This document shows positions 12,381 through 20,903 of a stretch of DNA of 64,000 nucleotides, piece by piece. The translations under genes were made by a program, and so were the position numbers. The DNA is from Bacteriovoracaceae bacterium (GTDB lineage: Bacteria; Bdellovibrionota; Bacteriovoracia; Bacteriovoracales; Bacteriovoracaceae). The stretch is taken from assembly GCA_017858255.1 (NCBI GenBank), contig JAFMBV010000003.1, forward strand, positions 1 through 64,000, given 5' to 3'. How positions within the stretch are numbered: the stretch's first letter is position 1; each line of letters begins with the position of its first letter. The notes under the pieces are model-generated. The model was not told the origin of the DNA. It made no database searches and worked only from the letters and a program-made list of their open reading frames with translations.

Positions 12381-12568
12381 TTCTTATCTCCTAATTTGGG
12401 CTCACCTTCGTCTTCATTGAAGGGTATATTCCCCGCACTATCATAGTAACTCTTACTTCCTTTTCTAAATGTCCAAAAAAGAACAAATATAAAAAAGGCG
12501 AAGAAAATGACAAAAGCCAAAACAGTTAAATCTGTCCACGCAAAATTACTTAGTACTTGTGACTTCAT
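12377..12568 (-). CDS. ccoQ: Cbb3 oxidase small subunit CcoQ/FixQ-like
   Basis: A 63-residue single-helix protein (helix about residues 13-33) ending in a charged tail with FNEDEGE. Its position between ccoNO and ccoP, and its size, fit CcoQ, which stabilises the cbb3 complex. ATG 12568 is chosen because GAGGAG lies 7 bases upstream; it overlaps the ccoNO 3' end by 23 bases. Sequence conservation of CcoQ is low, so the call relies mainly on context. Confidence 0.8.
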   Translation of the reverse strand: MKSQVLSNFAWTDLTVLAFVIFFAFFIFVLFWTFRKGSKSYYDSAGNIPFNEDEGEPKLGDKK

Positions 12569-14708
12569 CTTTCTTCTCCTCTGCCATATCAACACCTAAT
12601 CTTTGAAGATAAGCTATTAATGCAATGATCTCTTTGTTGACCATTTTTTCAGGAACTCCATCAGCAATGAGTTCGTCTATAATTAGTTTGGCCTGAGCTT
12701 TTGCCATAGCAGGAGCTTGTTTTAATTCTTCTTCAGAGTAAGGGGCTCCTAAAGCAGCTAAGACACTTAGTTTTTTAGTAAGAACTTCAAACTTTACTTT
12801 ATTCTTATACAGCCACGGATAGTTTGGCATGATTGATAGGGGGGTGATTTCACGAGGATTGAGCATATGACGATAATGCCAAATATTCCCGTACTTCTTC
12901 CCAATGCGATGAAGATCAGGACCAATTCTTCTAGAACCCCATTGAAATGGTCTGTCATAAACATATTCGGCGGCTTCACTAACTCGACCGTAGCGTAACT
13001 TGTCTTCAATCAAAGGTCTTACAAGTTGGCTGTGGCATGTATAGCAACCTTCTCGCACGTAAACATCTCTTCCCGCCACTTCAAGTGCAGAATAGGGTTT
13101 TACTCTAGCATCCATTACTATGAATTGATTTGAAACAAGTGAAGGAACCAACTCAATAACTGATCCTACTAAAATTGCCAAAAAGGCCAAGACAGAAAAA
13201 AGAAGGGGGAGTCCCTCAAGTTTTCTATGTCGACCCCCATGAGTATCTAAAGGTACTGCACTTAAAGGAAGTGCCTTAAATTTTTCTTCCACCTGATCTT
13301 TTGGTGCATTTTTTATAGTTTTGTAAACGTTATAGATGAGAATAAGGAACCCAATGAGAACAAGTGTCCCACCAAATGCTCTTAACCAATACATGGGAAT
13401 AATCTTATCCACAGTTTCTACGAAGTCTTTGTATACAAGTTTACCAGTGTCATCGATTGCTCTCCACATTAGTCCTTGGGTAATACCAGCGGCCCACATA
13501 GACACGATATAAAAGAGAAGGCCTATTGTAGATGACCAAAACTGGATGTTTGCAAGGCGTTCGCTATAAAGCTTTGTATTCCAAAGTTTAGGCACCATAA
13601 AATAGATCATGCCTGACGTGAGCATGTAGTTCCAACCAATTGTTCCAGAATGAACGTGTCCCACAATCCAGTCTGTAAAGTGAGCAAGGGAATTTACAGA
13701 CTTTATTGAAAGAAGTGGGCCTTCAAAAGTGGACATCCCATAAAAGGTGACTGCTGTGGCCATAAACTTGAGGATTGGCTCTCTTCTAACGCGATCCCAA
13801 GCACCTCTTAATGTTAAAAGTCCGTTGATCATACCTCCCCAAGAAGGTGCCCAAAGAGCAATGGAAAAACCAACTCCTAAAGTTTGAACCCATTCCGGAA
13901 GAGTTGAATATAGTAAATGGTGAGGACCGGCCCAAATATAAACAAAGATCAGCGACCAAAAGTGAATAATAGAAAGTCTGTAACTATAAACAGGTCTGTT
14001 TATGGCTTTTGGGATGAAGTAATACATTAGACCTAAAAAAGGTGTTGTAAGAAAAAAGGCGACTGCATTGTGACCGTACCACCACTGAACAAGAGCATCC
14101 TGAACACCGGCAAAAACGGAATAGGATTTCATAAAACTAACTGGAATCGCTAAGTTGTTTACAACATAAAGAACGGCAACAGTAATAATCGTAGCAATAT
14201 AAAACCAAATCGCTACATATATGTGGCGCTCTCTTCTTTTCTGTATAGTCAGAAAAAAGTTAATACCAAAGGTGACCCAAATGGCAGCGACTAATATATC
14301 GAGAGGCCACTCTAGTTCTGCATATTCCTTTGCAGATGAAATCCCTAGAGGAAGAGTAATGGCAGCACCTACTATAATAAGTTGCCAGCCCCAGAAATGT
14401 ATTCTTCCCAAAAGGTCACTCGCTAATCTTGTTTTGAGAAGCCTTTGTGTTGAGTAATAAACGCCGGCAAAAATAGCATTACCTATAAAGGCGAAAATCG
14501 CCGCATTGGTATGTAGCGGCCTTAGTCGACCAAAGGTAAACCAGGGCAGGTCGAGGTTTAGTTTATAGCTTGCCAGTTCAAAAGCTATCCATACACCTAA
14601 GAAGAGTGCTACCGCCCCCCAGATTAATGTGGCGATAACAAACATCTTCGTGAGTTTGTCATCGTAGGAAAAAGTCTCAAAATCTTGAGAATTAGTCTCT
14701 GTCGTCAT
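12546..14708 (-). CDS. ccoNO: Fused cbb3 oxidase subunits I and II (CcoN-CcoO)
   Basis: One 720-residue polypeptide holds the catalytic subunit CcoN (about residues 1-480) and the monoheme cytochrome CcoO (about 500-715). CcoN ligand regions are visible: RPLHTNAAIF, WYGHNAVAFF, AGPHHLLYS and GHVHSGTIGWN. CcoO has CYTCH (C555-H559), RIGPDLHRIGKKYG and the Met-containing IMPNYPW. The two subunits are normally separate genes; the fusion is known in Bdellovibrio-type bacteria as I recall. The enzyme is the high-affinity terminal oxidase that pumps protons at low oxygen. Confidence 0.97.
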   Translation of the reverse strand: MTTETNSQDFETFSYDDKLTKMFVIATLIWGAVALFLGVWIAFELASYKLNLDLPWFTFGRLRPLHTNAAIFAFIGNAIFAGVYYSTQRLLKTRLASDLLGRIHFWGWQLIIVGAAITLPLGISSAKEYAELEWPLDILVAAIWVTFGINFFLTIQKRRERHIYVAIWFYIATIITVAVLYVVNNLAIPVSFMKSYSVFAGVQDALVQWWYGHNAVAFFLTTPFLGLMYYFIPKAINRPVYSYRLSIIHFWSLIFVYIWAGPHHLLYSTLPEWVQTLGVGFSIALWAPSWGGMINGLLTLRGAWDRVRREPILKFMATAVTFYGMSTFEGPLLSIKSVNSLAHFTDWIVGHVHSGTIGWNYMLTSGMIYFMVPKLWNTKLYSERLANIQFWSSTIGLLFYIVSMWAAGITQGLMWRAIDDTGKLVYKDFVETVDKIIPMYWLRAFGGTLVLIGFLILIYNVYKTIKNAPKDQVEEKFKALPLSAVPLDTHGGRHRKLEGLPLLFSVLAFLAILVGSVIELVPSLVSNQFIVMDARVKPYSALEVAGRDVYVREGCYTCHSQLVRPLIEDKLRYGRVSEAAEYVYDRPFQWGSRRIGPDLHRIGKKYGNIWHYRHMLNPREITPLSIMPNYPWLYKNKVKFEVLTKKLSVLAALGAPYSEEELKQAPAMAKAQAKLIIDELIADGVPEKMVNKEIIALIAYLQRLGVDMAEEKKDEVTSTK

Positions 14709-19162: not shown

Positions 19163-19621
19163 TTACATGTCGTTTTGGTAAAATCGAAAAGTAATTGTTT
19201 CCATTCTTTTTTTATTCGCACCTAAATCGGAATGGCCCATTCGCGAAGCGCTTCTAAAATGAATGAGGTTTTCTTCCTGAAAGTTGAATTCTACATCATC
19301 AACGAATTTAAAAATTGAAGACGTAAACTCTGCATGAATGTAATCACCTTCATTTGTAATCACTTTAGCATTATCTGTTCTATTTAAAATGGATAAGAGA
19401 AGTTTCTTGGCATTCTCTTTGGTGGTTTCATATTTGAGTGGATTAAGGTGATGGTCAACATCCGTTGGATAATGACTACCAATGCAATTCGGTGAATCAG
19501 GACATTTGGATAAAATACTTTTTCCTTCTACAATTTTTGAACCTAGGTCTTTGGGGCGCGGAGCTTGGCAACTGACAATAAGGTTAATCAAAATAACAAA
19601 GAAGCTAAAGTTACGGATCAT
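19163..19621 (-). CDS. DUF1499-family lipoprotein
   Basis: The N-terminus has a lipobox (LIVSC, lipid-modified Cys18). The mature part has the DUF1499 hallmarks: CPDSPNCIGS early, then DDVEFNF and a C-terminal RSASRMGHSDLGANKKRME. The biochemical function of the family is unknown; members are envelope proteins. It overlaps the DUF2288 gene by four bases (ATGA), so the two are translationally coupled. Confidence 0.88.
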   Translation of the reverse strand: MIRNFSFFVILINLIVSCQAPRPKDLGSKIVEGKSILSKCPDSPNCIGSHYPTDVDHHLNPLKYETTKENAKKLLLSILNRTDNAKVITNEGDYIHAEFTSSIFKFVDDVEFNFQEENLIHFRSASRMGHSDLGANKKRMETITFRFYQNDM

Positions 19622-19911
19622 CCTTGAAATCTCCTCTGAATGAGTACATAGGGTTCGATTATGAGCATTTTAAAAAGAATATCTTCATTTTTGGCAAAGA
19701 GCGTAGCTTCCTCGGGTGTTGGTGTCGACATGAGACCATCATCTAGCCAAGTTTTTATCGTACTGATGTTGTCTTCTGCCATAGACACGCCGACTTCAAT
19801 TATATCTAGATCTTCATCAAGAAGATAAACTGAGCCTTGAGCAAAGTGTTGTGCCAAGGGTTCCCAAGTGGTGTCGAGAATTTCTTTTGTTAATTTATCT
19901 TTTAAGTTCAT
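19618..19911 (-). CDS. DUF2288-family protein
   Basis: A 97-residue cytoplasmic protein with the family pattern: TTWEPLAQHFAQGSVYLLD, the acidic VSMAEDN region, and VLIQ near the end. Function is unknown. The ATG at 19911 begins only five bases after the T run of the histone gene's terminator (19916-19923), and no Shine-Dalgarno sequence is visible. Its expression must therefore depend on read-through of that terminator or a promoter inside it. It overlaps the DUF1499 gene. Confidence 0.8.
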   Translation of the reverse strand: MNLKDKLTKEILDTTWEPLAQHFAQGSVYLLDEDLDIIEVGVSMAEDNISTIKTWLDDGLMSTPTPEEATLFAKNEDILFKMLIIEPYVLIQRRFQG

Positions 19912-19915
19912 AAGC

Positions 19916-19942
19916 AAAAAAAAGCCGGCTTTAACCGGCTTT
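19916..19942 (-). terminator. Intrinsic terminator of the histone-like gene
   Basis: On the minus strand AAAGCCGG and CCGGCTTT form an eight-bp stem with a six-base loop, followed by eight T residues. It lies 19 bases after the histone-like stop codon and ends five bases before the DUF2288 start. Confidence 0.88.
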
Positions 19943-19961: not shown

Positions 19962-20147
19962 CTAGAAGTCAGTTGCTTTAACAGTTTTTCTTCCGTTATT
20001 AACACATCTTTCTTGAGCATCTTTAACTAGCTGATGAACTCTTTCATTTAGCTTATCAAGAGCCTCACTTGAAACATTAAGACCTGTAGACTTAAGTGCT
20101 TCTTTTGTTTTTGATCCGACTAGTAGCATTTCCATTTCTTTAGACAT
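19962..20147 (-). CDS. Bacterial histone-fold protein
   Basis: A 61-residue protein made of one histone fold and little else. After a short helix (about 3-19) and loop comes a long helix (about 25-50), then GRKTVKATDF (52-61). The last segment matches the archaeal histone signature GRKTIKAEDI, including the Arg53 and Asp60 pair that forms a salt bridge in histone folds and the Lys/Thr DNA-contact loop. The Bdellovibrio histone Bd0055 is, as I recall, a comparable single-fold protein that coats DNA. ATG 20147 is preferred, with GGAG seven bases upstream; an upstream in-frame start has no support. It has its own promoter and terminator, as an abundant protein would. Confidence 0.85.
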   Translation of the reverse strand: MSKEMEMLLVGSKTKEALKSTGLNVSSEALDKLNERVHQLVKDAQERCVNNGRKTVKATDF

Positions 20148-20196
20148 CGTATTCTCCTTCTTATGATGATGATTATTAAATTGATTCTTAGGGAGT

Positions 20197-20224
20197 ATTC
20201 TAGTGAGAAATAACAAGGTTTCAA
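20197..20224 (-). promoter_or_regulatory. Sigma-70-type promoter of the histone-like gene
   Basis: On the minus strand TTGAAA (20224-20219) and TAGAAT (20202-20197) are separated by 16 bases, about 50 bases before the ATG. The gene is bracketed by this promoter and a strong terminator, consistent with a monocistronic, strongly expressed gene. Confidence 0.6.
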
Positions 20225-20264: not shown

Positions 20265-20903
20265 TTAATTTTGGCCAAGTATTGAAGTTATATGAGATTC
20301 GCTCCGTTCCAATTGCTGCTTTAGGTCCAATGACGCCGTATGGAAAGAGTCAGCTTTATCAGTTTTATTAATATTGAGGGGTGCGCCAAAATGGACATAA
20401 AAGGTTGTAAAAGGCCGAGGGATACGAAACTTGTCCCAAGATTTTTCTAAAACCCAATAATGACTTGGGATTATTGTGAATGGAATAATTGGTTTTTTTG
20501 ATAAATAGGCCAACTCAAAAATTCCCTTTTTAATCTCTTTAACAGGTCCTCTCGGCCCATCAATTGTTATCGCACCCGGAAACTTAGTTTTTAAAAAACC
20601 GATCATCTTTCTTAGCGCTTTTTGGCCATCTCTAGAGGATGAGCCCCTTGCTGTGACATGGCCCATCCATTCACAGGCCTTCGCCACAAGTTCTCCATCC
20701 TTTGAAGGAGAAACAATGACTGCATGTGGTTTGCCAGTTTGACTAAGAATCGCACCGATAAGGTTTTGATGCCATAGTGAGAATATATAATTACTGGATT
20801 CCTTTTTAACTTTTTCTAAAACCTCTGGGTTAAGATATTTATATCTATAGGTAAAAGAAAGAAGCTTTATAAAGATAAAGGCAAGAAGGGGTTTAAAGTA
20901 CAT
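20265..20903 (-). CDS. DUF374-family lysophospholipid acyltransferase-like protein
   Basis: A 212-residue member of the LPLAT superfamily. The N-terminal hydrophobic segment (residues 4-18) anchors it in the inner membrane. The catalytic HX4D equivalent is HQNLIG in the IFSLWHQN segment, followed by SKDGELVA, GSSSRDGQKAL and the DGPRGP motif characteristic of DUF374. Related proteins (LpxL-like, lysophosphatidate acyltransferase-like) transfer acyl chains to lipids. Its start codon shares the four-base palindrome CATG with the divergent neighbour. Confidence 0.88.
   Translation of the reverse strand: MYFKPLLAFIFIKLLSFTYRYKYLNPEVLEKVKKESSNYIFSLWHQNLIGAILSQTGKPHAVIVSPSKDGELVAKACEWMGHVTARGSSSRDGQKALRKMIGFLKTKFPGAITIDGPRGPVKEIKKGIFELAYLSKKPIIPFTIIPSHYWVLEKSWDKFRIPRPFTTFYVHFGAPLNINKTDKADSFHTASLDLKQQLERSESHITSILGQN

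Follow-up and report, generated by a model that had tools for sequence, protein, structure and literature searches.

A probable face-to-face histone of a Bacteriovoracaceae bacterium, its tail-less subfamily and a related copy on a phage contig

A 61-residue protein encoded in a 64,000-nucleotide stretch of a Bacteriovoracaceae genome (contig JAFMBV010000003.1; this whole stretch is called the window) is a genuine histone, with a fold match well beyond chance. From its sequence, we consider it likely that the gene encodes a face-to-face (FtF) α3 histone, whose tetramer ring would wrap DNA and which would be one of several proteins that compact the chromosome.

The histone gene and its fold

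The gene lies at 19962..20147 on the minus strand, with the ATG at 20147-20145 and the stop codon at 19964-19962, and its product is MSKEMEMLLVGSKTKEALKSTGLNVSSEALDKLNERVHQLVKDAQERCVNNGRKTVKATDF. The original prediction had placed a histone at these coordinates without naming a strand; the coordinates held, and the plus-strand reading of 19962-20147 was rejected, as it has no open reading frame and many stops. An 84-amino-acid reading frame with an upstream TTG start was also rejected, because a Shine-Dalgarno sequence, AAGGAG (20154..20159, minus strand), stands 6 nt before the ATG and the relatives begin at the ATG; a similar ribosome site containing GGAG is found in the related genes. Translation confirmed the predicted ending, GRKTVKATDF, and the presence of both R53 and D60, the pair to which the prediction had pointed.

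When we searched PDB sequences with phmmer, the protein matched HLp of Leptospira perolatii (E value, 4e-10), HBb/Bd0055 of Bdellovibrio bacteriovorus (1e-5), and HTkC of Thermococcus kodakarensis (0.001). Matches to designed Pizza proteins were discarded as repeat-summed matches of a 22-residue stretch. An AlphaFold2 single-chain model, built with 91 aligned sequences, had a pLDDT of 90.6, and DSSP placed helix α1 at residues 11 to 19, α2 at 27 to 50, and a short α3 at 58 to 60, with the chain ending at 61. The model has the shape of the FtF α3 histones (a shortened α2 and an α3 of 3 to 4 residues), and with an α3 of 3 residues it lacks the longer α2 and roughly 10-residue α3 of HMf-type nucleosomal histones. 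In Foldseek comparisons, the free and DNA-bound forms of HLp were the top matches (TM-score, 0.85 to 0.93), followed by HBb (0.81 to 0.87) and HTkC, while HMfB reached 0.57 to 0.62 and the nucleosomal histones were far behind HLp. The HLp match, the model confidence, and the HLp TM-scores all support the single histone fold proposed in the original prediction.

That prediction had also named two sequence comparisons by which it could be checked, of which the one with Bd0055 gave a match by phmmer and the one with the Pfam profile PF00808 (CBFD_NFYB_HMF) did not, the window protein scoring 19.4 bits (E value, 0.0013) under a gathering threshold of 21.4 bits. It also scored 21.2 bits against the NCBIfam archaeal histone model NF043032, under its 50-bit cut-off. 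The subthreshold PF00808 score reflects a profile that is a poor detector for the FtF-like group and is not counterevidence to the fold. A PF00808 search of the bacterium's own genome returned nothing above threshold; with Pfam as the sole detector, none of the three histones that are found with the protein as query would be recognized.

Interface residues and the tail-less subfamily

In Schwab et al. 2024 (PMC11390915), FtF and bacterial dimer histones are distinguished by an interface arginine and asparagine (HMM positions 48 and 52; R48/N52). These residues belong to the tetramer interface of HLp as R49 and N53, with R55 (Hu et al. 2025; PMC12701072). The interface arginine of one archaeal FtF histone bonds the carboxyl group at the chain-end position (PMC11390915). 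Using the ungapped phmmer alignment, in which a window position is the HLp number minus 2, we found that R47, N51, R53, and the C-terminal F61 are all present (HLp R49, N53, R55, and F63) and that the chain end at F61 coincides exactly with that of HLp. Along with the interface arginine and asparagine, the protein has the RxTxxxxD motif of FtF histones (R53, T55, and D60); the absence of both interface residues, by which bacterial dimer histones are recognized, is not seen here. We read the protein as an FtF histone because R47, N51, and R53 are present and the chain ends at F61.

These positions are also conserved among relatives. In the alignment of 91 relatives, R53, K54, T55, and D60 are invariant, position 51 is N in 88 sequences, and position 47 is R in 70 and K in 18. 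Three HBb-type sequences from the same phylum (L026 to L028) have A, S, and N at position 47 and D, D, and Q at position 51. A cysteine, C48, stands beside R47 in 55 of the 91 sequences, mainly in groups of Bacteriovoracia, at a position where HLp has T; redox sensitivity of the R47 interface through this residue is possible. In a maximum-likelihood tree, 16 tail-less sequences, including that of the window, form one group, which we call A (support, 99/93; 100% of bootstrap trees); the tree is built on few columns and has many weak forks, and the A group is not among the weak ones.

By sequence, the nearest characterized protein is HLp of Leptospira, which forms an FtF tetramer with about 60 bp of DNA wrapped around it (PDB 9QT0 to 9QT2; PMC12701072). 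HLp shares with the window protein a single α3-truncated fold, the chain end, the R/N/R tetramer residues, and the RD clamp, with 45% identity over the aligned core. The two differ in loop 1 and in part of loop 2, so that the DNA-contact positions of HLp are only partly conserved (T27 and G29 of loop 1 are V25 and S27 here, and T56 is K54). HTkC (PDB 9F2C; PMC11390915) has the FtF fold and the R and N interface positions in common with the window protein but is archaeal and about 40% identical to it. HBb/Bd0055, a dimer that binds and bends DNA (PDB 8CMP, 8FVX, and 9EZZ; PMC10627809, PMC11317129), has in common the phylum, a short single fold, the RKT loop, and the RD clamp but is without the FtF interface R and N. 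The Bdellovibrio protein, put forward originally as the related one, is thus not the best model, given the FtF residues and the closer match to HLp (4e-10 versus 1e-5).

A dimer of the HBb/Bd0055 kind, bending DNA without forming a tetramer, would fit the phylum shared with Bdellovibrio, the 41% identity and high TM-scores of HBb, and the family profile A1, where FtF and dimer members are combined and HBb and HLp score about equally. We regard it as improbable: R47 and N51, which are missing from dimer histones, are kept in 16 of 16 A-clade members, and the pairwise sequence search prefers HLp. Since the FtF residues absent from HBb are kept and HLp is closest, the window histone is expected to form an FtF tetramer and to wrap DNA rather than bend it as a dimer. 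As we picture this tetramer, two 61-residue chains would pair through antiparallel α2 helices, and two dimers would close into a ring through R47, N51, R53, and the chain end F61. The ring would wrap ~60 bp of DNA with no sequence preference, with contacts predicted from S12, K13, K15, and K19 on helix 1 and from K54/T55 in loop 2. We infer tetramer formation and DNA wrapping from HLp; abundance and cellular role are inferred as well.

Transcription, expression, and selection

The neighbors of the gene, assigned by Pfam and synteny and all on the minus strand, are a DUF374 protein upstream (20265..20903), which marks the conserved locus, a DUF2288 protein downstream, past the terminator (19618..19911), and then a DUF1499 protein (19163..19621). 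The order DUF374, histone, DUF2288, DUF1499, CRP is conserved in several relatives. Elsewhere in the window, at 12546-14708 on the minus strand, a 720-amino-acid reading frame with COX1 and FixO domains appears to be a fusion of cbb3 oxidase subunits N and O.

From the sequence and a footprint over 15 orthologous loci, we placed a promoter and a terminator around the gene, as had been predicted. The promoter, on the minus strand, consists of a -35 element, TTGAAA (20219..20224), and a -10 element, TAGAAT (20197..20202), separated by a 16-nt spacer. Alone, this match (20224..20197) is within chance, as 7.5% of shuffles equal it, and six promoter-like sites were observed over the region where 2.8 were expected. 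A TTGA-N18-TA(A/G)AAT pattern, however, precedes the orthologue in 13 of the 15 loci, compared to 0.16% (rate, 0.0016) of shuffled upstream regions; because the loci share ancestry, they do not count as 15 separate trials, although the upstream sequence around the pattern has for the most part diverged. It is because of this conservation, and not because of the match in the window, that we accept the promoter. The terminator (19921..19942, minus strand), an intrinsic hairpin, has 9 pairs and a loop of 4 nt, with a T run after it. Each of the 15 loci has a stable hairpin downstream of the stop codon (z, -3.0 to -6.7), and because the stem sequences differ, termination after the gene appears to be maintained and not merely inherited. 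The histone gene is thus monocistronic, has a ribosome site, a promoter, and a terminator to itself, and would be transcribed alone from a σ70-type promoter.

The codon adaptation index (CAI), calculated with the genome's own ribosomal-cluster genes as reference (one such gene left out), is 0.79 for the window histone, higher than for all 67 other long reading frames of the window (median, 0.64), with the limit that 61 codons are a short basis and 2.2% of equal-length segments from other genes reach 0.79. This codon bias suggests high expression, and the gene is probably well expressed, as the original prediction had expected. Two further histone genes of the same genome, described below, have CAI values of 0.82 (a lysine-tailed paralogue) and 0.62 (a zinc-finger histone). 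Within the genus, pairwise dN is 0.02 to 0.05 and dS is 0.5 to 1.1, showing that the window gene is under purifying selection.

Histone folds serve in other families outside chromatin (PMC11390915), and the net charge of the chain is merely +2, as might suit a regulator or a protein-protein adaptor. Such a role is very improbable here: HLp also has a net charge of +2 yet wraps DNA, the helix-1 lysines and the RKT loop are conserved, the transcription unit holds no partner gene, and a related copy is located among phage DNA-replication genes.

Host histone set and phage-borne copies

A histone-fold match of some kind was found in 113 of 129 family genomes. An A-type copy, defined as 70% identity or more, is present in 20 of the 129, and 14 of these 20 hold a second FtF-like copy of 55 to 66% identity, the classes being set by identity rather than by inspection of each sequence. 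In the window genome (G000), the second copy (L002:1492-1734, contig C195) has a lysine-rich N-terminal tail of ~20 residues and runs two residues past the A-type chain end; a ParA-like gene lies near it (L002:2466-3179). A third histone gene (L003:1243-1692, contig C114) has an N-terminal C4/C2H2-like zinc-finger region and a fold closest to HBb (9e-11); it follows the published ZZ-histone plan (PMC11390915) but differs in the cysteine/histidine spacing of the second finger half. Two HU/IHF genes are also present. The window histone is therefore not the only histone or nucleoid protein of its cell, and the other histones and HU/IHF weaken the idea that it is the main one. In contrast, HLp is reported as the sole histone in its cell, without HU (PMC12701072). 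We propose that the window protein is probably one of a set of proteins that compact the chromosome, together with the lysine-tailed FtF paralogue, the ZZ-type histone, and HU/IHF.

Two copies could also work mainly in mixed tetramers, the window protein and its lysine-tailed paralogue supplying one a core and the other a tail that binds DNA or a partner. This arrangement is compatible with the FtF explanation and differs from it in the working form. The frequency of second copies among A-bearing genomes, the high codon adaptation of both copies in the window genome, and the N51, R53, and D60 found in both argue for it. We nevertheless think it unlikely, as 6 A-bearing genomes have no second close copy (some of these assemblies are incomplete) and B-type chains mostly extend 2 to 3 residues beyond the A-type and HLp end, which would alter the contact of R47 with the C terminus.

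In the maximum-likelihood tree described above, FtF histones of six contigs filed under Omnitrophota (L049, L054, L066, L074, L077, and L079) stand amid B-type sequences of Bacteriovoracia, reflecting either transfer or a binning error. In some family relatives (L025, L029, and L030), a single chain of about 130 to 150 amino acids carries two histone folds.

The original prediction had also expected to extend the range of bacterial histones, which is not the case, as FtF histones of the class Bacteriovoracia were already reported by Schwab et al. 2024 (PMC11390915), the only relevant item that we found in the open-licence literature on histones of Bacteriovoracia or Bacteriovorax. The subfamily split and a phage copy go beyond the published record searched, in which we came upon no account of phage-borne FtF histones.

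This copy came from a scan of viral contigs, which identified an A-type histone (L117:2980-3171) on IMGVR_UViG_3300037755_000497, a contig of 108,875 bp in IMG/VR. It has 63 amino acids and is 80% identical to the window protein over 56 residues. In a tree of 29 rows, it falls within the A group (95/93; 94% of bootstraps) on a long branch, and its exact place is unsure. It keeps R47, N51, R53, D60, and the F end, with G52 replaced by N. The first 11 bases of its gene overlap the end of a phage-type helicase gene. After it come genes for an acid-rich protein, an endonuclease VII/HNH protein, a primase-helicase, and a DNA polymerase whose N-terminal domain is uracil-glycosylase-like. The contig is that of a tailed phage, since it has terminase, head maturation protease, virion, and tail-fiber genes elsewhere; a Pfam search of it with Terminase_6N gave no match. 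We rejected misfiled host DNA as an explanation, as no host neighbors adjoin the histone gene and the terminase, head protease, tail-fiber, polymerase, and primase genes are present. The similarity of the histones suggests a host among the Bacteriovoracia. No A-type histone was found in 50,697 INPHARED phage records.

The R, N, and RxTxxxxD positions also recur in more distant folds at L121:3932-4171, L122:281-616, and L123:3866-4165, which have N-terminal extensions that are lysine rich or of mixed charge; these viral contigs were lightly checked, and their phage nature is putative. The phage histones described by Schwab et al. 2024 have in common with the L117 protein an α3 histone fold in a tailed phage but are without RxTxxxD and have a C-terminal helical tetramerization domain (PMC11390915), whereas the L117 protein is a plain FtF-type fold.

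In the literature covered, the bacterial wrapping histone characterized by structure and in vitro is HLp of Leptospira. A single lineage with tail-less and lysine-tailed FtF histones, a zinc-finger histone, and HU/IHF would allow division of labor to be compared within one bacterium. Tentatively, and with somewhat less than even confidence, we suggest that the A subfamily is a histone of Bacteriovoracia specialized for wrapping DNA and that it was captured by at least one large phage into its replication genes, where it may organize the phage's own DNA or disturb host chromatin. With the phage copy, an FtF-type histone is tied to the replication of phage DNA, and this hypothesis of capture and use becomes testable; if it is true, FtF-type histones would represent a strategy that phages use repeatedly, separate from the phage-histone class already published.
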